Translations under genes and position numbers: made by a program
Assembly (NCBI GenBank): GCA_918797485.1
Contig: CAKKNE010000005.1
Coordinates: 3,162,001-3,226,000, forward strand
Source: Pelagomonas calceolata
Taxonomy: Eukaryota; Sar; Pelagophyceae; Pelagomonadales; Pelagomonadaceae
Reading direction: 5' to 3'
Length of the DNA stretch: 64,000 nucleotides
The notes under the pieces: generated by a model
Databases searched by the model: none
What the model was told of the DNA's origin: nothing
What the model saw: only the letters and a program-made list of their open reading frames with translations
Shown here: positions 1,131-62,317 of the stretch, one piece after another
How the letters are laid out: each line of letters starts with the position of its first letter
Numbering within the stretch: position 1 is the first letter of the stretch

Positions 1131-1522
1131 GGTTTGTGAGAGGCTTTTGGGCTGTCGCTGTCTACTCTGCGCTGCTATGAGTGACAAGTACGGCAGCAGA
1201 AATGACAGAGAAATGTTACCAGCGCCACGCAATTCGTAGCGCGACAAATCGGCGCGGGGCTGGGAGGAAGCTAGCGTCCAGTAAGATACTAGCAAGCAAG
1301 CCGGAGGCGCGCCCAAGCCCAATCTAGGGCACAGCAGTGGTATTCGTCGGACTCGGCCAGCTTCTGGAGCAGTACTCCACGCCTTGGACCCGCCGCGGCA
1401 GCGATTTCGCTCGGTAGGCCGCAGAGAGTTCAAACAAGCTCTGCCAAGCAGAGAGAGGAAAAGCCGCGCACGCGACGGCGGGCTGTCCAGGACTGCGGAG
1501 AGCTGAAAACAACACAAAAAAG
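1131..1522. promoter_or_regulatory. Divergent promoter between BOLA2-like and MLH1
   Basis: 392 bp separate the two start codons. The only outstanding element is the palindromic motif at 1270-1297. No TATA box stands out. Confidence 0.5.
1270..1297. promoter_or_regulatory. Conserved promoter palindrome, copy 1
   Basis: Outer halves GCTAGC and ACTAGC flank GTCCAGTAAGAT; the right half is followed by AAGC, as in several other copies. It lies 140 bp before the BOLA2-like start and about 225 bp before MLH1. Confidence 0.65.
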
Positions 1523-4500
1523 ATGCCGACGCTCCGTCGCCGCAAAGCGAAAGAACAAGACAAGGAGAACACCGACGACGCCATGGTCGACGACGACGAC
1601 GAGGAGGAGGAATATGACGACGGCGACCACGCGAGCGACGCGGACTTTGAAGGTTCTCCGGCCAAGAAGAAGCCCAAAGACGACGAGGAATTGCCGCAGG
1701 CGCCTCCCTTAATGGATGGCGGCGCGGCGCGGCCGCAAGCACCTGTTGACGGCGGCGCGGCGCGGTGCGGGGCGAATGTGGATGTGGGCGACGGGTGCGG
1801 CGTCCCGCAAGAAGACGCCAGCATGGAGCCGAAGGACATCCTGCGCTTAGATCCACTCGTAGTGAACCAGATCGCCGCGGGAGAAGTCGTGACGAAGCCT
1901 CCCAATGCGTTGAAGGAGCTCCTGGAGAACGCCCTGGACGCCGGGGCTTCTACTATCTCCGTCGAGGTCGAGGGCGGCGGCTTGGATCGGTTGCGCATTT
2001 GCGACGACGGGTGCGGCATCAAGCAGTCCGATCTACCGTTGTTATGTGAACGGCATGCCACGTCAAAACTACAAAAATTTGAGGATCTGGTGGACATCGA
2101 GACCTTTGGGTTCCGAGGAGAAGCTCTAGCTTCCGTGTCGTATGTAGCGAAGGTCCACGTCACTACTAAAGTAAGAGGCGACGAGTGCGCATACAAACAA
2201 AGTTTCCGGGACGGCGCACCGCTCGGCAAGCCGAAGGCGTGCGCCGCCCCTGATGGCACGACGATAACGGTAGAAGACATGTTCCACAACTTTCAAATCA
2301 GAAGGAAAATTTTGAGAGGCCAGGTCTCGGAGCAGTACCACCAGATGGTGCGGGTGTGCGGCGCCTACGCCGTGCACTACGCGTCGAAAGCGATATCTTG
2401 TCGCAAGGCCGGCCATGGTAGTGACTTGGTGACCACGGGCGGTACGACGCTAGAAGCGTTAACGGCGGTGCACGGTTCTACAACATCCTCAAATCTGTGT
2501 GAGTTGAAATGTGGACAAGAAGGCACGGACGAGAAACCGTTACATTTCTCGCTGACCGGATATGTCTCCAAAAGATGTGTGGAAACGACAAGGGGCACGC
2601 CTCAGAACAAGAAGGACCGGTTCACGTTGTTTATTAATGATCGATTAGTAGAATCCACGGCTATAAAAAGATGTGTGGATGAGGTCTATGCGAACCGACC
2701 CGACCATGTCGCTTCTACGACGAGCAAGCCCTTCGCGTACCTATCACTGAAAGTACCTGGTAGTCATGTGGACGTCAACGTGCACCCCACGAAGAAAGAA
2801 GTACATTTTTTGTACGAGGCGGAATTGTGTCAAGCTCTACAGCGAGCTTTAGAGCCGTTAGCGGCGAAGCACGCCGACACCCGTACACTAGCTCAGTTGA
2901 GCGACAAGCCTTCTAGACGGAAATCATCGTCACAGTCGCAGCTGTCCCAGCCCTCGTCACAGCAACCGCGGGGCGCGTTCCACTCGGAATCACAACCATC
3001 ACAAAAACGGACGACGAACACGCAGCCCTCGCAGCGGCCCGAGAAGATGATTCGCGCCGACTACAGAGATCAACAAATAGATAGCTTCTTCCCGGCCTCC
3101 CAGAAGACGCCGGCACCACCTCCAAAAGCGGTAAGGGAGGCCAATCGCGTCACGGACGCGTCTCGAGAGGATTCACCCGAGGACTGGTTCGCGTCGCAGG
3201 ACGATAGTGAGGCGCCCGCCGACTCGGCGACGCAGGACGGGCCGCCGCCGCCGCCGCCGCCGGATCCGACGCCGCCGCCGGAGACGCCTCCTTCCCAGGA
3301 GGCCGCGGCGCCGTCTCGAGACGGCGACGCCGCCATGGCGCCGGCGCGGCCGCCTCCCGAGCGAGCGACGGCCCGCTACGCCTTCGAGCCGCTCAAGGCC
3401 CATCAACTCGAATTAAGGGCGAACGACAACCTCGAGGTCTGGGTCACGGACGAGTCGTGGTGGCTCGCGCGGAACGCCCGAAGTGGTGAAGAGGGCCGCG
3501 TGCCGAGCGGCCACGTGCAGCTCGGCGCGTGGAATGAAGATGAGAGCGACGCGGACATGGCCGACGACGCGCCGACCGCGCGCGCGATGGCGCCGTCGCC
3601 GGACGACGACGAGGCCACCGCGCGCGCGATGGCGCCGTCGCCGGACGACGACGAGGCCACCGCGCGCGCGATGGCGCCGTCGCAGGACGACGACGAGCCG
3701 ACCGCGCGCGCGCGGCAGAACCTGCACAACGCCCTCAAGCAGCCGTCCCAGCAGGACGTCACTCACTCACAACCAACAAATCTGCAAGGCGACCGCTGCA
3801 AGCTTTGCGGCTCGCTCAAGGCATCGCAATCACTGGCCGAAACGCCGGGCGCCTTTGCCGCGTCGCGCGATGCGAGAGAGGCTTTGATTGATGACGACAA
3901 GAAGTGCCCGGAGTGCGGGTCGGTCAAAGCGGACGCGGTGTTGTTGCCACCTCCTCCTAGACCGCGCAAGTTCGAACTCAAACACACGCAATGCGAATAT
4001 GACTCCATTAAGGAAATGCTCGAGGAATTGCGGGCGCGGCGGCCGCGCGTCGCAAGCGCGGAAGCGTTGCGGACGCACGTCTACGTGGGCAACGTCGACG
4101 CGCACCGTTCACTCATCCAACACGGCACGAAGCTGAGCATGGTGAACCACCTGCTGCTTTCAAGAGAACTCTTCTCGCAGTTGGCCCTGCGCCAGTTCGG
4201 CGAAGTGGACTACCTCGAATTCGACCCGTCGTATCCCGTCGTGGACTTGATCGCGGCGCACCTGGAAGCGTGCGAGGCCGACACGATTGACGATGCGAAA
4301 GCTGCTTCGCAGGACGCCTTGGAGAAGTTACGAGCGAAGGCGAGCATGCTCAAGGAGTACTTTGGCATTGGTATTGATGATGGTGGTATGCTCACGCATT
4401 TGCCGGTGTTGCTCGAGGGGCACACGCCGTACCCGGGCGCGATCCCCGGTTTTCTGTGGCGCCTGGCCACGGAGACGGAGTGGCGGTATGAGCGAAGGTG

Positions 4501-4738
4501 TTTCGAAGATGTGATTAATCACCTCGGGGTCTGCTACGCGCAGCTGCCGTCCCACGAAGTTGTGCAGGATGATTTTCGCGAATTAGTTTTGGAGGACGAC
4601 GCGAAGGAGACGCTCGAGAAAGTCATCTTCCCGGCCTTGAAGCAGCTGCTCCTGCCGCCCGCCGGATTAGATGATGACGCGTGCATCGACACGCTGACGA
4701 CGCTCGAGCGGCTGTATCGGCAGTTCGAGCGGTGTTAA
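1523..4738 (+). CDS. MLH1: DNA mismatch repair protein MLH1 with an inserted SH3-like domain
   Basis: 1071 aa, much longer than typical MLH1 (about 750). MLH1 pairs with a PMS1-type partner to form the MutL-alpha endonuclease used in mismatch repair and meiosis. The N-terminal GHKL ATPase (about 110-430) shows NQIAAGEVV, ELLENALDAG, DDGCGI and FGFRGEALAS. RDQQIDSFF (about 515-523) matches the conserved linker motif near the MLH1 PIP-like box. The C-terminal dimerisation domain ends in FERC, the family's invariant terminus that completes the partner's endonuclease site. Inserted between the halves are an SH3-like domain (about 616-666, ARYAF, then WW, then GRVPSGHVQL), three 14-residue repeats, and two CxxC pairs (C759/C762 and C795/C798) that could bind zinc. 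The first 110 residues are acidic and lysine-rich. Start: ATG at 1523. Convergent with the FHA/Tudor-like gene, 19 bp away. Confidence 0.95.
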   Translation: MPTLRRRKAKEQDKENTDDAMVDDDDEEEEYDDGDHASDADFEGSPAKKKPKDDEELPQAPPLMDGGAARPQAPVDGGAARCGANVDVGDGCGVPQEDASMEPKDILRLDPLVVNQIAAGEVVTKPPNALKELLENALDAGASTISVEVEGGGLDRLRICDDGCGIKQSDLPLLCERHATSKLQKFEDLVDIETFGFRGEALASVSYVAKVHVTTKVRGDECAYKQSFRDGAPLGKPKACAAPDGTTITVEDMFHNFQIRRKILRGQVSEQYHQMVRVCGAYAVHYASKAISCRKAGHGSDLVTTGGTTLEALTAVHGSTTSSNLCELKCGQEGTDEKPLHFSLTGYVSKRCVETTRGTPQNKKDRFTLFINDRLVESTAIKRCVDEVYANRPDHVASTTSKPFAYLSLKVPGSHVDVNVHPTKKEVHFLYEAELCQALQRALEPLAAKHADTRTLAQLSDKPSRRKSSSQSQLSQPSSQQPRGAFHSESQPSQKRTTNTQPSQRPEKMIRADYRDQQIDSFFPASQKTPAPPPKAVREANRVTDASREDSPEDWFASQDDSEAPADSATQDGPPPPPPPDPTPPPETPPSQEAAAPSRDGDAAMAPARPPPERATARYAFEPLKAHQLELRANDNLEVWVTDESWWLARNARSGEEGRVPSGHVQLGAWNEDESDADMADDAPTARAMAPSPDDDEATARAMAPSPDDDEATARAMAPSQDDDEPTARARQNLHNALKQPSQQDVTHSQPTNLQGDRCKLCGSLKASQSLAETPGAFAASRDAREALIDDDKKCPECGSVKADAVLLPPPPRPRKFELKHTQCEYDSIKEMLEELRARRPRVASAEALRTHVYVGNVDAHRSLIQHGTKLSMVNHLLLSRELFSQLALRQFGEVDYLEFDPSYPVVDLIAAHLEACEADTIDDAKAASQDALEKLRAKASMLKEYFGIGIDDGGMLTHLPVLLEGHTPYPGAIPGFLWRLATETEWRYERRCFEDVINHLGVCYAQLPSHEVVQDDFRELVLEDDAKETLEKVIFPALKQLLLPPAGLDDDACIDTLTTLERLYRQFERC
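3575..3700 (+). repeat. Three tandem 42-bp coding repeats in MLH1
   Basis: Units of 42 bp (3575-3616, 3617-3658, 3659-3700) encode TARAMAPSPDDDEA-type repeats in the disordered region after the SH3-like domain. The near identity of the DNA units suggests recent expansion. Confidence 0.85.
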
Positions 4739-4757
4739 GAATTTAGTAGTGGTATTA

Positions 4758-6737
4758 CTAAGCCGCCGACAGGATCCCCCGCACGAGCACGTCCAGCGGC
4801 CCGTCGCCTTTTGGTGCCGCGACGCCCGCCCCACCAGCCAAAGCGGCCGTCCGCCGGCCCGCGCCCGCGGCGTTCGGCGCCGCACCCAAGGCCTCCGCCG
4901 CGGCCGCGTCGGAATGGGCGAGCCTGTCCAGCAGCGCGTCGCGCCGGTCCCCGGCGTCGAAGCCCAGCTCGTTCTCCAGCCTCTCTAGCAAAGCGTCTTC
5001 ATCTAACGACGCATCATCTAGATCCTCTTCAACAGAAAGGGCGAGGCACGCCCGCAGCAAGTCCGCGGCGCGCGGGTCCGCCGTTTTGGAGAGGGCCCGC
5101 AACAAACCTTTGAGAGTGCGATCCAACGGCACCTCGCCCCGGACCACGCACCGGTCCCGAAATAAGTCCAGGACGCGCGGCAGGTCCGCGCCGTCGACGA
5201 CGAGGTCGTCGACGATGTTCGCGACTTTCGCGGGCCACCGCTTCCGCGTGTCGCGCGGTACTCGGTCCTCCGTCGTCGTCACGGGGCGCTTCTTCGCGGC
5301 GGCGGGCGTCTTCACGCGTTTGGGCGACGGCCTCCTCAGCGTCGAGCTCCGCGGTTGACGCATGTCCTCGGGCTGCACGTTTTCTTCAGTCTCTCCATCA
5401 TCATAGAGCACGTCGAAGGTGGACGAGCGGCCGCGCGTCTTCGGGGGGCGCACTTTCGTGACGGCCCCGGGGTACCACGTCGTGCCCTTGCCCCAGCGCG
5501 CCTCGACGCGGTCGCCCACGGCGAAGGCGTCCGCGTCCTCCTCCTCCTCATTTTTACTTTTTGTGATCCACTGCGCGTCGACGCGCTTCTCAGAGCCTCC
5601 CATCGTATACTTGACGGCATACGTAAAACCCGTGGTCCTCTTCTCCGACCCGTCGCGCATGGGGCCTCCATCGATACTCCGTTCGTCGTTTATCTTCGTG
5701 ATCGTGCCCGGCCCGCCGGCCTTGTTGATGCCCGGGAACGTGCGCGCGGCGACCTCGACGGTGTCGCCTACCTCAAAACGCGGCGCCTCGTCCGTCGTGT
5801 CCATCGGTGCCGGTTCGTCCTCGTCGTCGCTCTCGGCGATCGTGCGGCGCTTGCGCTTCGGTTTCGTAGTGGACGCGGGCGCCGGCGCCGGCGACGCCTC
5901 CTTCGGCGCCTCCGGGAGCTCCTTGGAAAGCGCCTCGCGGTAGCGCTCGACGACGTCCGCCTTCTCCACGAGGTCCGCCACGGACAGGCCCGCTTTTATT
6001 ATAGCTGCCTTCATCTCCTTGATCGACGGCGTCGCTTCGGGCGCGGCCGCGCCGCGGCCCGTCCACGACCGCACCGTCGCGGCCACCTTCCCGAAGAAGC
6101 TTTGTGGCGGCGCCGCCGGCGCCGGCGCGACGACAACTCTATACGCGAAGCGCACGGCCGCCGGCAGGACCGGCGACAGCGGCGCGCCCGGGCGGTAGGG
6201 TGCGTTGAGCGGGTCCAGTATCAATATGTCGCCCTCACATAATTCCTTCGTCTCGCTGGCCCGCAGGATGTCGCGCGCGCCGTCCCTTCGCAGGATGCCC
6301 GACGCCTGCGCCGCCGAGAGCCCCGCGGCGCGACACGCGCCATCAACAATTTGCACGGAGCACTGGCGCCGCGACACGCCCGTTTCACTGGAAGCGATGT
6401 CGAGGTCGAGCTTGTCGCTCGCGTCGCTCTGGGACCGCCTTCCCAAAACCCGCGCTTGCGCGTGGAGCTCGTGGCGCGCGTCCTTGCGGTAGCTCCCGGC
6501 GTTGACGAGCCAGCCCGCGGGCTGCGGCGGCGCCGGCTTGAGCGGGTCGTTCCACGTCTGCGCGACGCGGCCGTCCTCGAGCAGCGTGCACGCGCCGCCG
6601 CCCTGACGCGCGCGGTCCGCCGCCGCGCGCGCCGCGGCCAGGGATGGCTCATCTCCGGCAGCGCTGTCGTGGACCCAGCGCGTTTGTGATGCGCCGGCGG
6701 GCTCGTGGAAGACCTGGTAGCGTTGCTGCTGGGCCAT
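4758..6737 (-). CDS. Nuclear FHA-like, SAP-like and double Tudor-like protein
   Basis: 659 aa from ATG at 6737; the 31 codons upstream begin at a non-ATG codon and are not protein-like. Visible regions: an FHA-like segment (about 95-200, with GRRSQSD, SRRQCSVQIVDG and an LCEGDILILD strand); a SAP-like helix pair (about 237-271, IKEMKAAIIKAGLSVADLVE); a basic patch KPKRKRR (about 292-298) that could be a nuclear localisation signal; and two Tudor/agenet-like barrels (about 320-394, FEVGDTVEVAARTFPG; about 403-460, FAVGDRVEARW then FDVLYDDGETEENVQPEDM). The C-terminal 180 residues are helical and unrecognised. The set of phosphopeptide-, DNA- and histone-reading modules suggests a chromatin or DNA-damage role (inference). 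It faces MLH1 tail to tail. Confidence 0.7.
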   Translation of the reverse strand: MAQQQRYQVFHEPAGASQTRWVHDSAAGDEPSLAAARAAADRARQGGGACTLLEDGRVAQTWNDPLKPAPPQPAGWLVNAGSYRKDARHELHAQARVLGRRSQSDASDKLDLDIASSETGVSRRQCSVQIVDGACRAAGLSAAQASGILRRDGARDILRASETKELCEGDILILDPLNAPYRPGAPLSPVLPAAVRFAYRVVVAPAPAAPPQSFFGKVAATVRSWTGRGAAAPEATPSIKEMKAAIIKAGLSVADLVEKADVVERYREALSKELPEAPKEASPAPAPASTTKPKRKRRTIAESDDEDEPAPMDTTDEAPRFEVGDTVEVAARTFPGINKAGGPGTITKINDERSIDGGPMRDGSEKRTTGFTYAVKYTMGGSEKRVDAQWITKSKNEEEEDADAFAVGDRVEARWGKGTTWYPGAVTKVRPPKTRGRSSTFDVLYDDGETEENVQPEDMRQPRSSTLRRPSPKRVKTPAAAKKRPVTTTEDRVPRDTRKRWPAKVANIVDDLVVDGADLPRVLDLFRDRCVVRGEVPLDRTLKGLLRALSKTADPRAADLLRACLALSVEEDLDDASLDEDALLERLENELGFDAGDRRDALLDRLAHSDAAAAEALGAAPNAAGAGRRTAALAGGAGVAAPKGDGPLDVLVRGILSAA

Positions 6738-7105
6738 GATAAACGGTTCGTGTACGGATGCGCGAGTGTCAATCCAATGCGAAACCGTGGAAAAAATGCG
6801 CAGCGGCTTTGCGCAGCCCTTTTTACTCAATTACTGGGTCCATGCTCAAAAATAGGCGCCAAAAACGGGTTTTCCGGGTACTCGACTCGGAGGGCGCCCA
6901 CGACACCTCTGCTCGAAGCCACCGAGCGCTCCGCCGTCGAAGCGCCCATCGTGCGGGCACGCGCCGCTGCGCCCGAATAGCTGGACAGCTTCTCCCAAAG
7001 AGGTGGTGCCGAAGAGGCTGGGGAAACGGCCGCGGACGATTAGTGCAGCCTCCTCCCAACGCGCGGCACACCGTTATCAAAGCGGGCTGCCCGAGGTCCA
7101 CGGCT
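6738..7105. promoter_or_regulatory. Divergent promoter, FHA/Tudor-like gene and CUB/EGF gene
   Basis: 368 bp. The + frame is open through this stretch but translates to low-complexity Arg-rich sequence. A GGGCTGCCC element lies about 20 bp before the CUB/EGF start. No copy of the GCTAGC palindrome is present. Confidence 0.45.
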
Positions 7106-10672: not shown

Positions 10673-10695
10673 TAGTAAGTAGTACAAACACAGAG

Positions 10696-15116: not shown

Positions 15117-15140
15117 GCTAGTGTCTTTAAGGACGCTAGC
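15117..15140. promoter_or_regulatory. Conserved promoter palindrome, copy 2
   Basis: GCTAGTGTCTTTAAGGACGCTAGC lies 106 bp before the ATG of the RING protein, in the 194-bp gap after the hydrolase-like gene. Here the neighbours are tandem, so the motif can only serve the + gene. Confidence 0.65.
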
Positions 15141-15960: not shown

Positions 15961-15984
15961 GCTAGCGGTCTGTAAGACACTAGC
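15961..15984. promoter_or_regulatory. Conserved promoter palindrome, copy 3
   Basis: GCTAGC and ACTAGC halves around GGTCTGTAAGAC, 179 bp before the ORC3-like start and 70 bp after the RING gene stop. Confidence 0.65.
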
Positions 15985-17802: not shown

Positions 17803-17808
17803 AGAAGA

Positions 17809-19163: not shown

Positions 19164-19688
19164 TTCGTTGCTCGCGGCGGCGGCGTGACCCTGGTTTGGG
19201 CAGCCTTTTGTGGCCGCGTTCTTCGGCCCTAGATCGCGCCGCAGGCGTGCGTAGGACAGCCTTTTGGCAGCCTGCTACTTGTGGGCAGCCCCTGCGGCCC
19301 TAAAGGCTTACCGGCTGCGCCCCTGCGTCCGTCGCGTGGTCGGTACCGTGGGCGTGCGTGCGCCTTGCGTGGGGCGTGTGTCGTTGGTCTGCTCCTTGTG
19401 CGCAACAACGCTCACAAGCTTTGTGCTTGGCCAACCATGGCCCGGCTAGTGGGTTCTTGCTCTGGAGTCCTTCGCGAGTCGGTTCGTACGGGTGTTTGGG
19501 CCTCGCGACCGTCCTGTATTGCTGCGCTTGCTTGCTAGTGTCTTTACAGGCCGCTAGCTCTCAGAGTTAGCAGAGCTGGAGGCTGGAGGAGCGGCACAGG
19601 CGCGCTCTCCGGGTCTCGCGCCTGGCAAGTTTTTCAGGGGCACACAGACGCTGCTGGCACGCGTGCAAAACCCATCGATAACAGAGTG
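19164..19688. promoter_or_regulatory. Divergent promoter, EF-hand gene and selenoprotein H
   Basis: 525 bp. Contains several GGCAGCC elements (about 19199, 19266, 19286), the direct repeat CAGCCTTTTG (two copies near 19203 and 19258), and palindrome copy 4 near the selenoprotein side. No protein-like frame. Confidence 0.5.
19534..19558. promoter_or_regulatory. Conserved promoter palindrome, copy 4
   Basis: GCTAGTG and CCGCTAGC halves around TCTTTACAGG, preceded by GCTT. It is 131 bp before the selenoprotein H start and 371 bp from the EF-hand start. Confidence 0.65.
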
Positions 19689-30501: not shown

Positions 30502-30524
30502 GCTAGTGTCTTACGGCCGCTAGC
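30502..30524. promoter_or_regulatory. Conserved promoter palindrome, copy 5
   Basis: GCTAGTGTCTTACGGCCGCTAGC, preceded by GCTT. It lies 81 bp from the CtpA start and 152 bp from the two-span membrane protein start. Confidence 0.65.
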
Positions 30525-37500: not shown

Positions 37501-37980
37501 AAAACAGCGCCAATGGCTGGATCCAGCGTTGGAAAATTGGTTATTAGATATTTGGGAAACAAAAGGCGGTCGCGCACACGACCGTGACGAGCCGAACCTT
37601 TCTGGGTGTGCCCTTAGGCCCAACGTGAGCTGAACGTTCGCCTTATACATCGCGAAATATCGGAACCCGAGTACAAGATATTGTCGGAGCAAATCCGTTC
37701 CCGCGCCCGCGATGGGAAGTAATTCCTTGATAGAACTAACCCCGAGAGATATCATGGGGGTAATTATGGGGGTGAAAGTGCTAGCGGCTGTAAAGACACT
37801 AGCAAGCCAAGCTCTGCGACGGCGACGAGGCTGTAACAGGCTCCGTGAGTGGCAGTGATCGACGTTGACACACTGAGAGCTGTCCATCAATCGCGCACAG
37901 CCGGAGCAGCAATCTTGCACCACCAGTGCGTGCACAATACGCAGCAGCACTGTGCAGCAAGTGCAAGCAGTCTACGCGGC
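37501..37980. promoter_or_regulatory. Upstream region of the UTP13 gene
   Basis: 480 bp with palindrome copy 6. The + frame is open from 37849 (a GTG codon), but the first ATG in the coding frame is 37981. The 37849-37980 part translates to leader-like sequence without protein character. Confidence 0.5.
37780..37803. promoter_or_regulatory. Conserved promoter palindrome, copy 6
   Basis: GCTAGC and ACTAGC halves around GGCTGTAAAGAC, followed by AAGC. It is 178 bp before the UTP13 start and 487 bp from the secreted-protein start, on the far side of the pseudogene fragment. Confidence 0.65.
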
Positions 37981-44666: not shown

Positions 44667-45054
44667 GGTCTCAGTGGGTCATGCCATCGCTGCGGGGCTG
44701 CCGCTGCATTTCGCTGTTCTGTACGACAAATGCGGTTCTCTCCACGCGTGATGGGCAGCTCTTTTGCCTTTGCGCGCCAAGTTGCTCTCTTGTCTCACTG
44801 CGCGCACTAATCCGCTAGCGTCCTGTAAGACACACTAGCAACGCATGACAACATCAGACTTGAGTGCCTTTTCGTAAGGCGACCCCGCCAATCGCCTGCA
44901 CTTGAACGCCTCGTAGCGTTCGCCGCGCTCCTTCACCTACGCTGTGCGCGCCGCGAACTGCAAGCGCGAACGCCTAGGGAGCGCGCAAACGCCAGTCAGC
45001 TCCTTGAGGCTCAGCAAGCACCCCTCCCGCACGCCATCGACGCAAAAGACAACG
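44667..45054. promoter_or_regulatory. Divergent promoter, cyclic-nucleotide-binding-like gene and aminotransferase
   Basis: 388 bp. Holds palindrome copy 7, a GGGGCTGCC near 44692 and an ACGCCATCGACGC element at about 45032, some 20 bp before the aminotransferase ATG. The + frame is open from a GTG at 44944 but shows no targeting-peptide character before the ATG. Confidence 0.5.
44814..44839. promoter_or_regulatory. Conserved promoter palindrome, copy 7
   Basis: GCTAGC and ACTAGC halves around GTCCTGTAAGACAC (two extra bases in the centre). It is 148 bp from the cyclic-nucleotide-binding-like start and 216 bp from the aminotransferase start. Confidence 0.65.
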
Positions 45055-47245: not shown

Positions 47246-47250
47246 ACAAT

Positions 47251-51763: not shown

Positions 51764-52262
51764 GGTTGCCCGGCGCCGCTTAGTTTATTTTGCAGTTTGG
51801 CTGCTCGGCTTCACAGCAACTAAAATGCTGCGGCCTTCGAGTATTTGTGCTTGCAAGCACAGATGTCACGATGCGACAGCAGGCTTCGCGCAGCTGTACG
51901 TGCTGGACTGCGGGTTAATTGCCCTCTATTTGTCGCTTTTTGCTCGGCTTTGTTGCTTTTGCCGGCGGCTCGGCTGCCTCTTAGCGTCGCCACAGAGTAC
52001 CCAGGCCCGCGTATGGATGCTTAGATGCGGATTAGATACTCGCTCGGGTTGATGCTAGCGCGTAAAGACACTAGCAAGCAGCCCAGTTTTGCGGCGCGGG
52101 ACTCCACGGCCGTGTACACTGACATTCGTGCTGAGGCGTCGTCGGAGAGACTTTGTCTCTCATCCGGCCAGCGCTGTCGACCGTAACCGCTCGTACACGC
52201 CATCACAAGCGCCACACAGCACGCTAGTCACTGGCGCCCACACGCCGTCGCGGCGCGCAACG
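51764..52262. promoter_or_regulatory. Divergent promoter, ZIP transporter and AP-4 mu
   Basis: 499 bp with palindrome copy 8. The + frame is open from 52089 but codes Arg-rich sequence before the family start at 52263. An ACGCCATCACAAGCG element is at about 52198. Confidence 0.5.
52054..52075. promoter_or_regulatory. Conserved promoter palindrome, copy 8
   Basis: GCTAGC and ACTAGC halves around GCGTAAAGAC, the shortest copy (two bases missing in the centre), followed by AAGC. 188 bp before AP-4 mu and 291 bp from the ZIP start. Confidence 0.65.
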
Positions 52263-53884: not shown

Positions 53885-54457
53885 ATGCACCGGGTGGCCA
53901 GGCTGGTCACGCGACGCAGCATCATGGGCAGTGTCGTCGGACGCATCACCGAGGAGACGCCCGCGTACGAGGTGCTGGCGACGGGCGACAATTTCGAGGT
54001 AAGACGGTACGCCGCCGGCACGGCGGTCGAGGCGAGCGACGCCAATAACCAGGCGTTCGGAGCCCTCGCGAAGTATATCGGCGTCATGAGCAAGCCGCAG
54101 AACGCGCGTGGCGAAGCCATCTCGATGACCGCGCCCGTCGTGTCCATTCCCGACGCGGGCGACGCGATGCGCATGCAGTTCGTGCTCCCGTCGGCCATAA
54201 AAGACGCGCCGGAGCCGACGGCCGAGGGCGTTCGGCTCGTACCGCGGCCGGCGCAGACCATGGTCGTCGAGCATTACACGGGTAGCTGGTCCGAGGCGGA
54301 CGCCAAGGCGCGCGCGCTCAGGCTCGCGGACCGCGCGCGCGCCGCGGGCCATGCGATTCCCGAGGACCTCGCCGGCGTCGCATGGGAGTGGCGGCGGTTC
54401 AATCCCCCGTGGACGATCGGCTTCATGAAGACCAACGAGGTCTGCATACCATTGTAA
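53885..54457 (+). CDS. SOUL family heme-binding protein
   Basis: 190 aa from ATG 53885 (MHRVARLVTRRSIMGSVVG), or 177 aa from the inner ATG 53924, where MGSVVGRITEETPAYEVLATGDNFEVRRYAAGTAVEAS aligns with the family start. The SOUL domain continues with FGALAKYIGVMSKPQNARGEAISMTAPVV and MVVEHYTGSWSEADAKARALRLADRARAAGHAIPEDLAGVAWEWRRFNPPWTIGFMKTNEVCIPL, the usual SOUL end. Such proteins bind heme or tetrapyrroles and occur in plastids and cytosol of algae. The extra 13 residues contain RLVTRRS and may be a targeting start. Convergent with the anoctamin gene, 19 bp apart. Confidence 0.88.
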   Translation: MHRVARLVTRRSIMGSVVGRITEETPAYEVLATGDNFEVRRYAAGTAVEASDANNQAFGALAKYIGVMSKPQNARGEAISMTAPVVSIPDAGDAMRMQFVLPSAIKDAPEPTAEGVRLVPRPAQTMVVEHYTGSWSEADAKARALRLADRARAAGHAIPEDLAGVAWEWRRFNPPWTIGFMKTNEVCIPL

Positions 54458-54476
54458 ACAAAAGAGTACTGTTAAT

Positions 54477-57400
54477 TCATACCGCCTCGCCCGGGTCGTC
54501 CAATGAATCGTCGAACGGCGACTTGTCCACGGACGCGTGCGCCACCGCGTACTTGCCCGGCGTTGGTACTGGAGGCGGACCGACCTCGCCGGTAACAGGC
54601 TTGCCCTCGCCGGGCGCGGGCAGCGCGTCGAAGTTAAAACCCGACGACGCGAGGTGCGGCGTCGTCGATTGGGTGGGAGGTGGCAATTTTGGAGAGGGCA
54701 TCGGTGATGTTCGTGGTGATGCCCGCGGCGACGACTCGTCGTCGACAATAATCGCGTCGAAGAGCGCCTGCTCGTCGTCGTCGCCATCTAACGAGGGCCG
54801 CGGCGATACCCTAGGAGACACGCGCGGCGAGGTCCCAGGGCCACACGCATCGAAGAGGGCGCCGAGGTGGTGGTCCTCGGTCCGCGGCGAGGTCACCTTC
54901 TTTCTTGGTGTGGAGCGCTTCTTCGGTGACGGCTTCTTTGGTACAGGAGAAAAGAACGCGTCCACACCTGAACCGAGCACCTCCTGGCGGTGGGGCGTGT
55001 CCAGCGCATCGACATTGCCCCAGGTCGGGCCCTTTTCAGAATCATCCGAGACGACATGGTCCAGGGCTTTATCCGCTTGAGCTAAACCTTTGAGCACTCC
55101 AGTCTCGGCCTTGGCCATGCCTCGCACGACCTTCATCTGTCGTATTTCCTTCGACTTCTGCTGCAATCGCTGCGTAAACAATTGGGTCCCATGCCCGATG
55201 GCGTCGAAGATCGCATCTTCTTCTTGGTCGACCTGGTCCATGCCCTCATCGTCGTCGGAGTCTTGGACTGTCAAAGGCGAGGGCGCGTCCTCATCATCCG
55301 ACTCCTCGTCGGGGGTCCTGTCTAGCAACTTCGAACAGATGAATGCTTTGCGTTTCAATTGTATCTCGACATCCTCGGGCGTGTCTGGCACCGCAACAGC
55401 GATACCCAACATCAGAGCAAACACAAAGTACTGGCACGCGAAGAACGCAAAGGCCCTCTCATTAGGTCTTAGTTTCTCATCTCTACCGGTAGCTTGGAGC
55501 GGCTGCCATCTTACGGTGTAGAAGATACACGCCGTGTTTGTCGTGACAGAGGCGGCAGCGATCAACTGAAAAACCAGAGTCCAGGAGCCAATCGACCACG
55601 CGACGCGCGGCCACAAACGCCGTTTGAAATATAGATACTTCTTCAGATCACCCGCTACTTCTAGTTTATTAGCGATCCAGGCCACTAATGGCAAACAGGG
55701 CAGCGCCGTAATGAACAACGTAATAAAGCCAAACCGCATGGCAATATTCGACATGTCTTGAATTTGATCTTCAAACCCGTCGGTAGGCGCCAAGTCAAAT
55801 TGCAACTCCGCCTCGTGCTTGCCGTCTCTCTCATCTGTTAGTTCGGGGTGCTTGTGGCGTTTGTACTTCTTCTCCAAGTACGGGATGAGTAGGTCCATGC
55901 ACAGCCCCGAGAACCATTTTGTGAGGAAGATGATCCCTAAATTCATCTCCAAAGCAGAGTAGCAAGTACCTTTACCTGGTTCTATATCACCGTTACCACG
56001 CGGGCAGCCCTCCAAATGTCTCTGGAAGAAGGCGTTGTACACCAAGGGAATGTTGTAGTTGCAAAAATTGAACGAGATCAGTTTCAGGATCAAGTTGTTG
56101 TAGTGTTCCACGTCCGTGCGATGGTTCTCCCACGTGTTGAAAAAACGAGCCACGTACTGGAACAGGTAGTTCATGATTTGTATCGCTATCGTGTTTATCA
56201 CCGATGCCACTACGGAAGCGTATCGAGCCGCCATGATCGACGACGTCGTCTTGTCGAAGGCCCTCGTCAACACGACGCGCATGTAGATGATCCCGATGTT
56301 CACCCACACGAGCACTATTATGAGTGCCGCGACGACAAAGAACGCGATACAAGCATGTCTTCTACGTCTTCCAGCCGGATAGAAGGCTTCCGGTCTCCCA
56401 TCGACGAGTGACGGCCGGAGCGGACCCCGGAACCCGGGCCGGTCGGGCACCGTTTCCGCTAAGCCTAGTGTCCCCCAGCGCATGGCCAATCTACTTTCTT
56501 TCCTTTTCCAGTGCTCCAACAACCCGATGGCCCAGATGCACTGGAAGGCTGAAAAGAAGGGCAGCATTCTACTTTTAGCTCGCGGCCGATCGATCACGGA
56601 CGCCTCGAGGTACATGATGAACGTCGTCGCCACGCCCACAAACGCACTGAGAGCACAGCCCGCCGTGAAGTGGTGCACGAAGGCGAAATAGAGCGCTAGG
56701 CGATCGCCCACGTAGTCCCTTATATTATTCACGTCCCCCCGTAAACCCCACCGCTGGAACTCCTCCATGACCTGCTCCCGCTTCTCCACATCATGTAGAG
56801 GATAGGCCGCTTCTATGATGTTATTTTTTTGGAGTCTATGGAAGTTCACGCCACACCCACCTCGACTCGGTCGCTGCTCGATGATCGTACCGAGTAATTT
56901 CAATCTCAATAAAGGCCAGGCAAATAGGTGGGGATAGCCGCGCGGCACTTCATACAGCACCTGCATCTGACTGTTCGTCTCGTACTTGCCGTGGATGCAC
57001 TCGTAGGGTCTTACGTTATTTGTGAGTTTCGGGTCGTGCCTTAGCTTCCTTCCCTTAATGCCGGGACCACCACGTTCAATGGCCTCCTTGACTTTCTCCT
57101 CGTTCATGGGCACGACCCAGTCCAGCGCGTCGGCGGCCCGCGCCAAGCGGTGGACCGGCGCCCTTAACAACGCCCATCTTCGCTTGCCATCCGAGGACTC
57201 CACGAGCTTCGTCTCGATGCCACCGGACTCGAGACGTGTTATCACAGATTGTTGTTGTTCTGTCAATGCATTGTCGACAACAGTAAAACAAACGCACGCG
57301 TCCCAGCCGTACCCGTACTTGGCGCGGAACTCGTCCTCCCCTAGACCCGTGCGCCGATCTCTCACGAGCTGCACGACCTTCGCCGGGGAGAGGGCAGCGA

Positions 57401-57524
57401 CCGTCGGGCTCGCGATGTTCGTGCGCTTGCGCCGCCGCGGCAGGGGGCTCCATGAGAATTTCTTGGGCTGGGGGCTGCTCGGCGGCGTGGCTTTGTTCTT
57501 CTTTTGCGGCGAGGGCGACCACAT
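54477..57524 (-). CDS. Anoctamin (TMEM16) membrane protein
   Basis: 1015 aa. The cytosolic N-terminus is basic and Pro-rich, then a ferredoxin-like region (CVCFTVVDNALTEQQQSVITRLESGGIETKLVESSDGKRRWALLRAP) typical of the anoctamin dimerisation part. From about 285 there are eight to ten spans, including FGVATTFIMYLEA, MLPFFSAFQCIWAIGLLEHWKRKESRLAMRWGT, the family signature for TM2-3, and FNTWENHRTDVEHYNNLILKLISFNFCNYNIPLVYNAFF, the TM5 region. Later ALEMNLGIIFLTKWFSGLCMDLLIPYLEKKYK corresponds to the Ca2+ site helices. The 300-residue acidic, Ser/Pro-rich tail is unusual. TMEM16 proteins are Ca2+-activated chloride channels or lipid scramblases; which applies is not visible. Confidence 0.9.
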   Translation of the reverse strand: MWSPSPQKKNKATPPSSPQPKKFSWSPLPRRRKRTNIASPTVAALSPAKVVQLVRDRRTGLGEDEFRAKYGYGWDACVCFTVVDNALTEQQQSVITRLESGGIETKLVESSDGKRRWALLRAPVHRLARAADALDWVVPMNEEKVKEAIERGGPGIKGRKLRHDPKLTNNVRPYECIHGKYETNSQMQVLYEVPRGYPHLFAWPLLRLKLLGTIIEQRPSRGGCGVNFHRLQKNNIIEAAYPLHDVEKREQVMEEFQRWGLRGDVNNIRDYVGDRLALYFAFVHHFTAGCALSAFVGVATTFIMYLEASVIDRPRAKSRMLPFFSAFQCIWAIGLLEHWKRKESRLAMRWGTLGLAETVPDRPGFRGPLRPSLVDGRPEAFYPAGRRRRHACIAFFVVAALIIVLVWVNIGIIYMRVVLTRAFDKTTSSIMAARYASVVASVINTIAIQIMNYLFQYVARFFNTWENHRTDVEHYNNLILKLISFNFCNYNIPLVYNAFFQRHLEGCPRGNGDIEPGKGTCYSALEMNLGIIFLTKWFSGLCMDLLIPYLEKKYKRHKHPELTDERDGKHEAELQFDLAPTDGFEDQIQDMSNIAMRFGFITLFITALPCLPLVAWIANKLEVAGDLKKYLYFKRRLWPRVAWSIGSWTLVFQLIAAASVTTNTACIFYTVRWQPLQATGRDEKLRPNERAFAFFACQYFVFALMLGIAVAVPDTPEDVEIQLKRKAFICSKLLDRTPDEESDDEDAPSPLTVQDSDDDEGMDQVDQEEDAIFDAIGHGTQLFTQRLQQKSKEIRQMKVVRGMAKAETGVLKGLAQADKALDHVVSDDSEKGPTWGNVDALDTPHRQEVLGSGVDAFFSPVPKKPSPKKRSTPRKKVTSPRTEDHHLGALFDACGPGTSPRVSPRVSPRPSLDGDDDEQALFDAIIVDDESSPRASPRTSPMPSPKLPPPTQSTTPHLASSGFNFDALPAPGEGKPVTGEVGPPPVPTPGKYAVAHASVDKSPFDDSLDDPGEAV

Positions 57525-57876
57525 CGTTTCGAGTGCTGCGGCGGCTGGCGTGCGCGGGGCAGCAGTCTTAGGCTTGCATAATTTCCGTCCAGCTACTTTG
57601 GAGTTGCCACTGGTTTTGAGTTTTGGAGGCTGCCCGCACGCGCGGCTTTAAACGCATCAATTAAAGATCCGCTCGTGCGGCTCGCAGGCGGCTTCGAACT
57701 GGCGAGTCGTCTGACGGTGAATTGCTAGTGTCTTACAGGCCGCTAGCCTCGGTGCTCGGCAGCGCAAAACGACTGCCTACCGGTGCGTGCGCTGCCGTGC
57801 GAACCGATCATAACGTACGCATAACGTACGCGAAGCGCGCGAGCTGAAAAACCGCATCGCTGCCGACCCACAAACG
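57525..57876. promoter_or_regulatory. Divergent promoter, anoctamin and ALDH-like gene
   Basis: 352 bp with palindrome copy 9, a GGCTGCCC near 57631 and the direct repeat CATAACGTACGC (two copies near 57809 and 57819). Confidence 0.5.
57724..57747. promoter_or_regulatory. Conserved promoter palindrome, copy 9
   Basis: GCTAGTGTCTTACAGGCCGC followed by TAGC, the copy closest to the consensus. It lies 130 bp before the ALDH-like start and 200 bp from the anoctamin start. Confidence 0.7.
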
Positions 57877-59988
57877 ATGATGCGCCGCCTCTCCCGCCTG
57901 GCGCCGCGCTCCACCAGCACAGAACGCTTGGCGCCGCGACGCACGCGAGCCTACAACTTCGCGAGCAGCCAGTACAATGCCGCCTTCGGAGACCTGCCAC
58001 CCGTCGACCGCGACAAGCTGCGGAAAGACGCGATCGCCTACTGTGAGCGCTTCGACGCACAGAAGTGGTACGACGACCCCGTCGCGACGTGCATCGCTGG
58101 AAAGCCCGTCGAAAGCGGCGAGAGCGGGCCCACGTACGACAATTTTGGGAGGGAGAACGGTATTGTATTACATGGTGATATCGATGGTCTCCTCGACCAC
58201 CTGCGGGACTTTGATGGGGTAAGGGACCAGCGGACTTCTGTGAGGAGTGTGGAGCGGGCCCTCTTCACGGACCACGCGGCGGCGTTGATCGGGAACCAGA
58301 CGCTGGACTTTGGGAAGCAGGACGGCGTGACGGAAATCGAGGAGGCGCTCGAGGCTTCAGAGGTCGAGCGGCGGCTGGTGGACCAACTGTTGGATGACGA
58401 GGAGAGGGGCGTTCTATGCATTGAAAGAGCACCGGTGCTCGTCGCGTGCGTGTCGAACTTCTCGAACTTCTTGGATTTGTCGCGGAAGACGCTGCGCAAC
58501 TTAGAATGTGGTATACCCGTTGTGGTACTGTCAAGGACGGGCTCGACCACCCAATACCCGTACCGGTGGTACCAATTACTAATAGAGGAGATGGCGCGCC
58601 ACGGTGTGGATACAAAGTACGCGTCCTTCGCCAGCGTGTCTCTGGAGAAACAGATCGAGCTCTGTCGAGCTCTGGGCGACGCGTCGCCGCTGCACATCAC
58701 GTCTTCAAGGCAAACTGCTCTAAACTGCAACGCCTCCCATAATAACGTCATCGCGTCGACGGGCGGCCCGAACACGATGGTCGTCGCCGGAGCGCTCGAC
58801 GGCGCGACGGGCGCGTTATTGCGGGACAGCGCGACGATCGAGCACGCGGGCCAGTGCACGGCGCTGCGCGTCGCCGTGCTGGACGCGCGCCACGTTGCAC
58901 CAGACGCGGTACATGAGGCGCTGCGCGGCGCCGCGGCGCCGGCGACGGCGACCGACGCGCTGGCCACGGACGTCTACGCGGGCCTCTTCCCGGGCGCGCC
59001 GTCGACGTCGTGGGGCGAGGACTACGTGGACTGCGACCGCGTCAACGTGAAGACGAGCGAGGCCATGCCGGTCGGGCACTTAGATGAGGGCTGGCGCCAG
59101 CCCGTCGTCGACTTGAGTATTGCGAAAGACTTCGGCAGCGACGCCCACGTGTTGGACGTATCAAACTGGCTTGTCCAGAGGCAGCCCATTTCCCTCGCGG
59201 TGAACGGCGACCTCGCGCTCTCTGTCAAGCTGTGGGAGCGCACGGCGATGGTCGTCGTGACGGTCGGCGGTTGTGATGGGCGGCCGCCGGCGTCGACGTG
59301 CCAAGCTAGACCGCAGGACGGCGAGATCTTCGGCGAGGTGCCGCCGCGCAAAGAACTTCGAGAGCACACGCGGTTCCCCGTCTACGTGCCGAGCGCGGCG
59401 CCGGCCTACAACGCGTCCTACGATGCTTCGTATCTGAAGACGCGGAGCGACGCGCCGTTCCCATCAAGCGTCGCGGCCTTGATGGAGAGAGTGGAGGATG
59501 CTACTGTAAGGGGCTACTGCTCAATCTTGGTCGACTATCTGCGAGACGCCTGCGGCCCGCGGCCCGGGCCCGGGAAGGCCCGGGAGACGCTGTACGGCTG
59601 GCAGCGGCCGCCGTTGCATCTCAAGACGGCGTTCCGGCTGGCCGCTTCTGCCTCCCTAGACGACGTCACTCCGGCCATCGCATTATTCCTCGCGACGAAT
59701 GCGCGCGACCAGCTCGTCGTTTCTGTCGAGGCGGGCGGCGATGCGCTTGTCGATGCCTTATCAAGCTGCGGCGTGGACGCGAAGGTCGAAGAGCGCTTCG
59801 AGGCGGACGTGTACTACGACGCCGTCTCCGGTGCTGATTTGAGGGACCGCTTCGCTACGTACCCGCTGGCGCAGCAGTTCGCCTCGCTGTTCCTCACTGT
59901 CGGCCACGCGAAGTCGACGCTAGGAAAGGACGAGGCGTTCGTCGCGGCGTTTTCCGCGTCGCCGAAGTGGCTGCGGGTTGTGGAGTAA
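57877..59988 (+). CDS. Aldehyde-dehydrogenase-superfamily protein with C-terminal extension
   Basis: 703 aa, longer than the usual 500. The N-terminus MMRRLSRLAPRSTSTERLAPRRTRAYNF is a typical mitochondrial presequence. The recognisable ALDH part covers about 150-470: PVLVACVSNFSNFLDLSRKTLRNLECGIPVVVLSRTGSTTQYPYRW (coenzyme region), STGGPNTMVVAGALDG, and ATIEHAGQCTALRVAVLD with the catalytic cysteine C327. The GQCTALR version resembles ALDH proteins of the PutA-like branch. The last 230 residues (LWERTAMVVVTVGGCDGRPPASTCQARP to the end) form a second domain that I do not recognise. Substrate unknown; glutamate semialdehyde is one guess. Confidence 0.75.
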   Translation: MMRRLSRLAPRSTSTERLAPRRTRAYNFASSQYNAAFGDLPPVDRDKLRKDAIAYCERFDAQKWYDDPVATCIAGKPVESGESGPTYDNFGRENGIVLHGDIDGLLDHLRDFDGVRDQRTSVRSVERALFTDHAAALIGNQTLDFGKQDGVTEIEEALEASEVERRLVDQLLDDEERGVLCIERAPVLVACVSNFSNFLDLSRKTLRNLECGIPVVVLSRTGSTTQYPYRWYQLLIEEMARHGVDTKYASFASVSLEKQIELCRALGDASPLHITSSRQTALNCNASHNNVIASTGGPNTMVVAGALDGATGALLRDSATIEHAGQCTALRVAVLDARHVAPDAVHEALRGAAAPATATDALATDVYAGLFPGAPSTSWGEDYVDCDRVNVKTSEAMPVGHLDEGWRQPVVDLSIAKDFGSDAHVLDVSNWLVQRQPISLAVNGDLALSVKLWERTAMVVVTVGGCDGRPPASTCQARPQDGEIFGEVPPRKELREHTRFPVYVPSAAPAYNASYDASYLKTRSDAPFPSSVAALMERVEDATVRGYCSILVDYLRDACGPRPGPGKARETLYGWQRPPLHLKTAFRLAASASLDDVTPAIALFLATNARDQLVVSVEAGGDALVDALSSCGVDAKVEERFEADVYYDAVSGADLRDRFATYPLAQQFASLFLTVGHAKSTLGKDEAFVAAFSASPKWLRVVE

Positions 59989-60713
59989 ATTTATGAAATT
60001 GGTCCCTTGCCTGCTTCTTAAACGTCCAGAGGACTCGTTATCCGCCGCATGATGATGCCGTCGCCGCCAATCGACGCGATTTAGAATGGCGCGGGTTTTG
60101 CCGGGCCGAAAATCGTTGAGGTGCTGTCCTGGAGGTCCCTGAGGTCTCCTACGCCCTCCGACAGCTCCCTTTGGTGCTTCTAAGGCAGCCGAGGATACTA
60201 GAGGGTACTAGCTTTGACGTCCCAAGCTCCTGCAAGCTAGCCGATTGCCTGAGTGTGCACCCGTGTCAGACGCCCGCAGACCCTCTGCGATAGCTATTTC
60301 CAGAGCTTGAGATGGTCTGAGAACGTATCTGCAGCCACACCGCCGGCCCTTGACCAGCCGCTTCCCTTAGATCGCTTGCTACTTCAGCCGCGCCGCGGGC
60401 GTCGTACGGGCTCGCGCGCTTCGGATGTAGCCGCCAAAGGGCTTCTAAGCAGTGCTGGTCGCACCGAGACAAAAAATCTCGCAGCGATTAGCCCGAGAAC
60501 CCCTCGTTTGGCGGCGACGGTCCGAGTCGCACGAGGCCGCTCCGGCGGCTGCGGCGACGGCTCGAGGCGGCAGCATCCAGCCGCCGCAGGGAAGGCAAGC
60601 GCGCCGGTCGCGGCACTCCGGTCGCGTTACGCTCTCACACACACCGCGCCGACGCCCCACACAACGCACAACCGCTCACCGCCTCCCCTTCCCCCGCAGA
60701 AAAACTCCCGAGG
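59989..60713. promoter_or_regulatory. Long upstream region of psbU
   Basis: 725 bp between tandem + genes, one of the longest promoters here. It contains no GCTAGC palindrome; a loosely similar TACTAGAGGGTACTAGC lies at about 60198. A frame open from 60253 yields Arg/Pro-rich sequence. CCCCCGCAG before the ATG (60690-60699) could be a leader splice acceptor. Confidence 0.45.
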
Positions 60714-61109
60714 ATGAAGCTCGTCGCCCTCCTCTTCGCCGGCGCGTCGGCCCTCGCGCCCTCGAGGCGCGCGTTCCTTTCCAAGGTCGCCGGCGCGGCG
60801 ACGGGCGCCGCCGTGGCCGCGCCCGCGCTCGCGGACACGGACTACGCGGGCCTGCCGTACCTCGGCGGCTCGGAGAAGATCGACGTCAACAACGCGAACG
60901 TCCGCGTCTACGCGAAGCTCCCGGGCATGTACCCCGGCGCCGCCGGCAAGATCGTCACGCACGGCCCCTACAAGTCGGTCTCGGAGATCTACGCGTTCAT
61001 GAACGAGAAGGAGAAGGCGGCCACGAAGAAGTACGAGTCGCGCCTCATCACGCTCGAGCCGTCGGCGATGTACGTCATCGACCGCGTCAACAACGGCCTC
61101 TACCGCTAG
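60714..61109 (+). CDS. psbU: Photosystem II extrinsic protein PsbU, nuclear-encoded
   Basis: 131 aa. The leader MKLVALLFAGASALAPSRRAFLSKVAGAATGAAVAAPALA has a signal peptide, an ASALAP motif like the ASAFAP of secondary plastids, then SRRAF with a hydrophobic stretch, a twin-arginine lumen signal. Mature PsbU: KIDVNNANVRVYAKLPGMYPGAAGKIVTHGPYKSVSEIYAF, matching KIDLNNTNVRAFRQFPGMYPTLAGKIV, and the C-terminus DRVNNGLYR, matching DRINNGIYR. PsbU stabilises the oxygen-evolving complex on the lumen side in red-lineage algae and cyanobacteria. Codon use is very GC-rich, as for a highly expressed gene. Convergent with the FHA/zinc-knuckle gene. Confidence 0.95.
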   Translation: MKLVALLFAGASALAPSRRAFLSKVAGAATGAAVAAPALADTDYAGLPYLGGSEKIDVNNANVRVYAKLPGMYPGAAGKIVTHGPYKSVSEIYAFMNEKEKAATKKYESRLITLEPSAMYVIDRVNNGLYR

Positions 61110-61189
61110 ACACTGTGAGCGCCGCCGGCGGGTGGGAGCGCGGCAATAAAAGCGATTGAACTCTATCAACAGACATTGGTTAGTCGCGG

Positions 61190-62122
61190 CTAGTACCTCC
61201 CGTAGCCGTAGTAGCTGTACGGCTCGCCGCAGTCGCTCGCCCAGTGGCCGCGCCCGCCGCAGCGGTAGCAAACATCATTCGCGCGAGAGTCGTCGTCGGA
61301 CTCCTCCTCCTCCTCGGACTCGTCGGACTCGTCCTCGTAGTCGACGTCGGAGTCCTGTGGGGCCGATTCCGGCGGCGAGAACTCGGGCTCCTCCTCATCG
61401 TCGGAGTCCGGCGCCCCCGTTAGATCGACGTCGACCGCCTGCTGTGGCGAAGGCGCCGGCGCCGGCGCCGGCGCTACCGCCGCCTCGAACCGAAATCGCC
61501 GGCCGCAGATCTCGAAGACGTCTCCGCTATTCACCTCACGCGCCTCCTTCGGCTTGAGCGTCTCGCCACGTAACACAGTGGTGTTCGCGGCCCGGGCGTG
61601 GTTCTGTAGTGTTGCGTGCCCGTCCACCGTCAGCTCCGCGTGGAGGCGCGAGCAACGAGCTACCGGGACGCGCACGTCGTTGTCGAGCGCGCGGCCAAAT
61701 TTCAGCGTCTCGTGCAGGGGCACGCGCTCGCCGTCGGCGCCGTCGCTCTTCAGGACGCAGACGTATCCCAATGGTGGGGGCGCGTCCGAGGCGTCGTCGT
61801 CGACCTCTAGCACGTCGCCCTCCTGCTCCGCTCGCTGGCGGTTCGCTTCGGCGCGCTCTTCTGCTGTTTGGACGCCTACGAGTTCGAAGTCCTGGCTGTC
61901 TTCGCTCTTGCGTGGCTTTGCCGCGATGGCCCGTGCGTGTGCCGCCGTCGTGTCGCGCGTCTTGCCGTCGTCGTCGAAGCTCACGTCGTCGAGCCGGCTC
62001 CGCCGCCGCGCCTTATTCTGGCGGACGAAATCAGCGGTCGCCTCCTCCGCTTCCTCGTCCCTATCCGAGGCTTTTTTCTTTTTGCGCGCAGTCGACTTCT
62101 TGGCGGCTTTCTTACGCGCCAT
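61190..62122 (-). CDS. FHA-domain protein with a CCHC zinc knuckle
   Basis: 310 aa. Lys/Arg-rich start (MARKKAAKKSTARKKKK), likely nuclear. FHA domain about 118-215: LKFGRALDNDVRVPVARCSRLHAELTVDGHATLQNHARAANTTVLRG, with GRALDNDV and SRLHAEL corresponding to the phosphothreonine-binding GR...S..H pattern. An acidic region follows, starting with VDVDLTGAPDSDDEEE, which fits a SUMO-interaction motif next to acids. The C-terminus is a CCHC knuckle, CYRCGGRGHWASDC, and a Tyr-rich tail. Such a set could tie phosphorylation signals to nucleic-acid binding in DNA repair or RNA processing; this is inference. Confidence 0.8.
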   Translation of the reverse strand: MARKKAAKKSTARKKKKASDRDEEAEEATADFVRQNKARRRSRLDDVSFDDDGKTRDTTAAHARAIAAKPRKSEDSQDFELVGVQTAEERAEANRQRAEQEGDVLEVDDDASDAPPPLGYVCVLKSDGADGERVPLHETLKFGRALDNDVRVPVARCSRLHAELTVDGHATLQNHARAANTTVLRGETLKPKEAREVNSGDVFEICGRRFRFEAAVAPAPAPAPSPQQAVDVDLTGAPDSDDEEEPEFSPPESAPQDSDVDYEDESDESEEEEESDDDSRANDVCYRCGGRGHWASDCGEPYSYYGYGRY

Positions 62123-62293
62123 AGCAGCTCTCCGGTTAGCCGAGTTTCAAAAGCATTTAAAGCTGCCCGTGATCTCCGTGGTGCCGCAGCGCTGCAGCGC
62201 TCAGATGGACTTGCTGGGCTGCTGCTCACAGCGGCTCAAGTCTTTGCCACACGCAGTTACACTCGTACCTCTTTTTTTTGCCCAGGCCTCCGA

Positions 62294-62317
62294 GCTAGCG
62301 GCATGTAAGACACTAGC
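62294..62317. promoter_or_regulatory. Conserved promoter palindrome, copy 10
   Basis: GCTAGC and ACTAGC halves around GGCATGTAAGAC. It is 172 bp before the FHA/zinc-knuckle start. Confidence 0.65.

Follow-up and report, generated by a model that had tools for sequence, protein, structure and literature searches.

What is a near-exact word of about 24 bp doing between the genes of Pelagomonas calceolata? The question is raised by a 64,000-nucleotide stretch of contig CAKKNE010000005.1 (positions 3,162,001 to 3,226,000, hereafter the window), in which a motif with the outer halves GCTAGC and ACTAGC occurs ten times; an earlier note on this DNA, here called the original prediction, took it for a common bidirectional promoter element. 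The answer favored here, with a probability of roughly 70%, is that the 24-mer is the putative binding site of one abundant, sequence-specific nuclear factor, or of a two-part complex, which would occupy the central part of between a third and a half of the promoters in this alga and keep about 200 bp open.

The ten copies were all found exactly where the original prediction had put them. The pattern GCTAGC-N6-18-ACTAGC matches the window ten times against 0.12 expected (mean of 100 dinucleotide shuffles), and a gapped weight matrix at a score of at least 17 returns the same ten and none further. They are 22-26 bp long, the inner gap being variable. Gene models, here and throughout, are our own open reading frame (ORF) calls scored by hexamers, not the official annotation.

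1270..1293, plus strand: copy GCTAGCGTCCAGTAAGATACTAGC, in a divergent gap, 5' of an MLH1-like gene
15117..15140, minus strand: copy GCTAGCGTCCTTAAAGACACTAGC, in a tandem gap
15961..15984, plus strand: copy GCTAGCGGTCTGTAAGACACTAGC, in a tandem gap
19534..19558, minus strand: 25-bp copy in a divergent gap; one of its neighbors, a weak ORF model, lacks an ATG
30502..30524, minus strand: 23-bp copy in a divergent gap, with an S41 peptidase gene on one side
37780..37803, plus strand: 24-bp copy in a divergent gap, 5' of a Utp13-like gene
44814..44839, plus strand: 26-bp copy in a divergent gap, between genes for a cNMP-binding protein and a class V aminotransferase
52054..52075, plus strand: 22-bp copy in a divergent gap, 5' of an adaptor-complex mu-subunit gene
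57724..57747, minus strand: exact consensus 24-mer in a divergent gap, with an anoctamin gene on one side
62294..62317, plus strand: 24-bp copy, 171 bp 5' of a minus-strand FHA-domain gene

As had been claimed, seven of these (1270, 19534, 30502, 37780, 44814, 52054 and 57724) lie between divergent genes in the ORF models, and none is in coding sequence or in a convergent gap; on the other side of the copy at 62294 there is no clear gene as far as the window end. The claimed distance of 81-226 bp to a start codon holds to within one base for nine of the ten, whose nearest predicted starts are at 80-187 bp, but not for the copy at 19534; this one is 265 bp from an ORF model of 65 codons that lacks an ATG, and 376 bp from a start.

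The consensus reads GCTAGCG-[GT]C[CAT]T-GTAAGACACTAGC, with a less conserved AAGCA after it; the outer blocks are near-invariant, and positions 8-11, 16 and 24 vary most. Matrix scores over 264 kb are bimodal, with 12 matches at 9-17, none at 18-23 and all others at 24 or above, so the motif is a discrete element; the copy at 44814 scores just 17 because of its insertion. The same matrix run on reversed sequence gave three matches, with scores of 8, 9 and 15. Among the 99 strict copies listed (forward strand, first part of contig 1, one overlapping duplicate removed), 24 bp is the commonest length (53 copies), followed by 23 bp (23), 22 bp (13) and 20 bp (five); rarer lengths are 25 bp (two), 26 bp (two) and 30 bp (one). 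The information content is 37.6 bits over 30 columns, calculated from 26 copies of the 24-bp length. Variants such as those at C1:413449, C1:1414280 and C1:1904470 keep both outer blocks and differ in the center (GTAATCGACATACTAGC or similar); these are perhaps a second subtype of the site.

The genome-wide search proposed with the original prediction found thousands of copies and far fewer matches in a backwards control. In the 32.4 Mb searched (six large contigs plus contigs of 90.6 kb and 39.4 kb), CTAGCG-N7-12-ACACTAG has 3,416 matches against 6 in the control, GCTAGCG-N8-11-CACTAGC has 2,281 against 3, TGTAAGACACTAGC has 1,177 against 0, and the strict form has 2,859 against 115. The P. 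calceolata RCC100 assembly is described as having 32.4 Mb of nuclear sequence in six contigs, a plastid of 90 kb and a mitochondrion of 39 kb, with a duplicated end common to contigs 1 and 5 (PMC9481584, covered in part). That end is represented by L009 and L015 (99.4% identity), of which L015 is excluded from sample counts; with it there are 44 copies, three of them coding. The resulting non-duplicated sample of 254 kb, made up of the window, one stretch each of 110 kb and 20 kb, the starts of five contigs and a 10 kb piece, holds 43 copies at a matrix score of at least 17, or 0.169 per kb, which would extrapolate to about 5,500 copies if the rate holds everywhere. Eight 3-kb loci fetched by the motif were used in matrix training and excluded from placement counts.

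Forty of the 43 sample copies are in promoter-type gaps, two are in predicted coding sequence and one, near a sequence end, is unclassed. The coding copies are few despite a sample that is about 80% coding (p 2e-26); one lies 69 bp inside a predicted start that is possibly misplaced, and the other is weak and in the duplicated contig end. Among gaps of at least 40 bp, shorter predicted gaps being excluded, a copy is found in 24 of 50 divergent, 16 of 57 tandem (15 if no 10 bp overlap with gene models is allowed) and none of 31 convergent gaps (Fisher p 7e-6). Convergent gaps being shorter overall, the comparison was also limited to gaps of 150-1000 bp, with counts of 24 of 46, 15 of 43 and 0 of 14. 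An even scatter through coding and convergent regions, which the original prediction had named as its refutation, is therefore not seen.

Within the gaps, the copies keep away from start codons. The median distance to the nearest start codon is 155 bp (71-265 bp at the 5th-95th percentile, 40 copies), and one of the 40 copies is closer than 60 bp, compared with 29% of random places in the same gaps (Kolmogorov-Smirnov p 2e-4). Copies in divergent gaps are central, at a mean of 0.37 of the gap from the nearer end versus 0.25 expected (p 1.5e-5). Those in tandem gaps point with the gene nine times and against it seven times; strand symmetry was among the checks proposed with the original prediction. 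A copy is present in 40 of the 107 promoter-type gaps; of 102 genes with ATG models of at least 450 bp, counted over the window plus the 110 kb stretch, 49 have one in their upstream gap.

The copies are also centered on a trough, about 200 bp wide, that is rich in adenine and thymine (AT-rich). The guanine-plus-cytosine (GC) content rises from 0.54-0.60 inside the first 100 bp around the copies to 0.63-0.68 at 100-300 bp, fairly abruptly on either side, and random places in the same gaps show a shallower, smoother dip. With the motif masked, the AT-richest 150 bp is at a median of 31.5 bp from the copy, while random places in that gap are about 99 bp from it (n = 36, p 9e-7), and the inner-outer GC contrast is -0.080 versus -0.018 elsewhere in the same gaps, for places no closer than 50 bp to a gap end (n = 39, p 1.5e-5); these 36 and 39 are drawn from the 40 copies between gene models, short gaps or sequence ends being excluded. 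Such a trough would fit an open, nucleosome-poor region centered on the site.

Conservation in a sister species had been suggested as a further check, and the motif is present at three orthologous sites in a near relative with flanks that are 96, 89 and 76% identical. L031 (96% over 1,004 columns) and P. calceolata both have the complete 24-mer (24/24), L032 (89% over 347 columns) has 24 of 24 motif bases, and L035 (76% over 215 columns; from the same genome bin as L032) has 21 of 24, with its three changes at positions 8, 16 and 18, all of which vary among P. calceolata copies too. These contigs come from metagenome-assembled genomes (MAGs) in GTDB that are labelled bacterial, and each aligns to P. 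calceolata. The alignments are only partial and L035 joins segments that are 0.5 Mb apart in P. calceolata, so rearrangement or chimeric assembly is possible. The GTDB contig search had two matches, both to MAG contigs with pelagophyte-like DNA, and a search of IMG/VR viral contigs with two motif patterns had none. A side result is that GTDB MAGs named Spirochaeta and proteobacterium (ERR599032_bin.133 and ERR599052_bin.23, from what we take to be the Tara Oceans runs ERR599032 and ERR599052) hold DNA of a near P. calceolata relative; the bins are therefore contaminated or have chimeric contigs.

The original prediction also held that the motif is more than a simple palindrome, and this is strongly borne out. 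A mean of 15.6 of the 24 positions are self-complementary (53 copies), but sites with two right-type arms number 36 (control 1) and sites with two left-type arms 17 (control 5), against 2,281 asymmetric ones. Arms chosen independently would give about equal numbers of symmetric and asymmetric sites, so the site is polar: the motif is read in one direction and points either way relative to genes. At the six outer pairs of the 43 copies there are no double changes that keep pairing, 17 one-sided changes that leave the pair unpaired and three double changes that do so; one one-sided change creates a pair, at the sixth position, where the consensus has none. The lack of compensating arm changes argues against a hairpin of RNA or DNA. 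Rfam finds nothing in the window at gathering scores.

The genes served are diverse. A Pfam scan of the 110 kb stretch covered 60 of its 66 genes with ATG models of at least 450 bp, six that cross piece borders being excluded, and found matches at 1e-6 for 18 of 30 genes with the motif and 16 of 30 others, of mixed functions. Those with the motif include PsbU, tRNA dihydrouridine synthase, FKBPs, a signal peptidase, a kinase and methyltransferases; ribosomal protein L4 and an mRNA capping enzyme are among those without. No gene-function enrichment was seen and no pathway was prominent among these 60 genes, in agreement with the claim that they share no obvious pathway. In the 107 promoter-type gaps, counts of other promoter words against the reversed words are 10 versus 8 for TATAAA, 12 versus 10 for ATAAAA and 31 versus 21 for CCAAT; a TATA signal is thus lacking, and CCAAT is in slight excess at most. 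Another word, GGCAGCC, counted on either strand, occurs in 40 of the 107 gaps versus 12 for the reversed word, and in 1 of the 31 (shorter) convergent gaps; it is seen both with and without the 24-mer, in 16 of 40 gaps that have a copy and 24 of 67 that do not. The MLH1-like protein encoded at 1523-4738 of the window also has a match to an SH3 domain (SH3_1, 4.7e-6) between its N- and C-terminal parts.

Judged by its placement in promoter-type gaps with no gene orientation, its central position in an AT-rich trough and its three orthologous sites, the motif does appear to be the common bidirectional promoter element that was proposed. That its factor is lineage-specific, as was also proposed, may be so; among pelagophytes and other stramenopiles the analysis covered P. 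calceolata and fragments of a close relative. The mechanism would be that a factor or complex, probably the same for all copies, grips the two blocks GCTAGCG and GTAAGACACTAGC(AAGC) across a slightly elastic gap and holds the stretch of about 200 bp open, probably by keeping it free of nucleosomes, so that transcription may start on one or both sides; the direction of reading would be fixed, and the effect on genes would not. Sites between divergent genes (24 of 50 gaps) with no fixed orientation (9 versus 7), upstream of many unrelated genes, are what a general regulatory factor would have, and on the best-supported reading the factor would work like Reb1 and Abf1 of yeast and ZNF143 of animals.

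Several points weigh against this reading. The placement depends on our own ORF calls as gene models. Divergent gaps without the motif (n = 22) likewise dip in GC near their center; the motif alone therefore does not make the trough, which may have been there first. The factor cannot be required everywhere, as 67 of the 107 promoter-type gaps have no copy. The three orthologues were fetched via motif search, so the informative direction is that P. calceolata also has the motif. The 37.6 bits, a value inflated by score selection, far exceed the approximately 13.5 bits that would suffice for marking about 5,500 places; comparing the information observed with that required reportedly goes back to Schneider. 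This surplus means that one ordinary factor is not an obvious explanation. Finally, a zf-C2H2 search gave 34 matches, three of them over the Pfam cut-off, and no clear tandem array, although the search may collapse arrays. A tandem C2H2 factor was set aside as a candidate, the most finger-rich of the three ORF stretches read having widely spaced C2HC fingers. L040 (C1:3066001-3072500) has on its minus strand a long ORF, with 1,619 codons within L040, that encodes about 18 widely spaced C2HC-type zinc fingers. The factor search covered C2H2 fingers; sites of the Reb1/Abf1 kind are bound by general factors of the Myb or zinc-finger type, and a Myb or other factor is an equal possibility here.

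A bolder form of the idea is that pelagophyte nuclear promoters are built round a polar two-block 24-mer, read by a two-part complex that has no counterpart in yeast, animals or plants; at between a third and a half of all promoters, this complex would define the open region and license initiation to either side. We consider this doubtful, if possible. If true, it would be a promoter architecture peculiar to an algal lineage, and the surplus information would be that of two proteins reading jointly.

A chromosome-architecture or replication site, such as an insulator or origin, might be found in promoters because these are open. The copies are mostly intergenic, at about one per 6 kb, and CTCF sites are likewise polar, long and information-rich. 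Such a role is nevertheless unlikely, since promoter function is the simpler account of the irregular spacing of 0.7-16 kb (in two stretches) and of copies being found in 40 of 107 promoter-type gaps.

Confinement to promoter-type gaps and a limited range of distances to the nearest start codon (71-265 bp) would also be expected of a core-promoter element that, like TATA or an initiator, is directional and keeps a set distance to the transcription start. However, the distances are broad for such an element, the orientation in tandem gaps is evenly divided (9 and 7), 24 copies are between divergent genes and 53 of 102 genes have no copy, all of which makes this quite unlikely. An ordinary palindromic operator, bound by a homodimer and regulating one pathway, would account for the near-inverted arms (GCTAGC/ACTAGC) and the self-complementary positions; it is very unlikely, given the rarity of symmetric sites and the 49 of 102 genes that carry the motif with no shared function seen.

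A dispersed mobile repeat, MITE-like (miniature inverted-repeat transposable element) or introner-derived, that landed in promoters by chance is extremely improbable in spite of the thousands of near-identical copies and the introner-like repeats seen in the genome, because no shared sequence extends beyond the motif (there is no family-wide flank similarity, nothing adjoining the motif is conserved beyond about 6 bp, and matches between the 200-bp flanks are pairwise, scattered, 16-36 bp long and located away from the motif, the duplicated contig end aside), no self-similar repeat (1e-8) overlaps any copy except in that end, the 31 convergent gaps have none, and one orthologous site is kept between flanks of 76% identity. 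The published genome is described as having an intron-length peak typical of introners (PMC9481584). The introner-like repeats seen here are about 205 bp long with inverted ends CTGTGTGGAAATCAA, are found in both orientations and are 90-96% alike when compared with the copy at L029 7705; an introner origin of the motif was rejected, as these ends do not resemble it.

L029 1531-1769: introner-like repeat
L029 5785-5984: introner-like repeat
L029 6102-6320: introner-like repeat
L029 7705-7919: introner-like repeat
C1:1035917-1036134 (in L021): introner-like repeat

The element appears to be unreported, and its kind, a common promoter-factor site, is already known; it stands out by its length, near-invariance, polarity and reach. 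No mention of it was found in the literature covered, including PMC9481584, PMC5917014 and PMC13284251, each in part and with supplements outside the scope. A near-exact word at a third to a half of promoters would be a handle for pulling down the factor and for predicting promoters from sequence, and the site seems to carry much more information than its copy number needs. The motif also raises the question of whether stramenopile lineages each evolved a general promoter factor of their own.

Among known systems, the animal ZNF143 site (SBS) is, as here, long and polar and occurs at the promoters of many genes that are not related to each other, but its sequence is unrelated to the Pelagomonas motif. 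The zinc-finger results also differ: the 34 zf-C2H2 matches include three over the cut-off, and the finger-rich ORF has widely spaced C2HC fingers. CTCF sites are long and polar with a gapped second block, as here; unlike the Pelagomonas sites, they are not mainly promoter-centered. The sites of yeast Reb1, Abf1 and Rap1 serve many unrelated genes and are shorter and less information-rich than the Pelagomonas site, which is about 24-28 bp long. Membership in the Reb1/Abf1 or ZNF143 families is not claimed for its putative factor. The yeast sites are nevertheless like it in being promoter sites, divergent promoters included, and Reb1 and Abf1 are described as organizing nucleosomes at promoters, again with divergent ones among them (PMC7618759, covered in part). 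Oomycetes, which are stramenopiles, likewise have recurring promoter motifs; their core promoter elements are reported to sit around the transcription start (PMC3599244, covered in part), while the Pelagomonas motif has no gene orientation in the sample.

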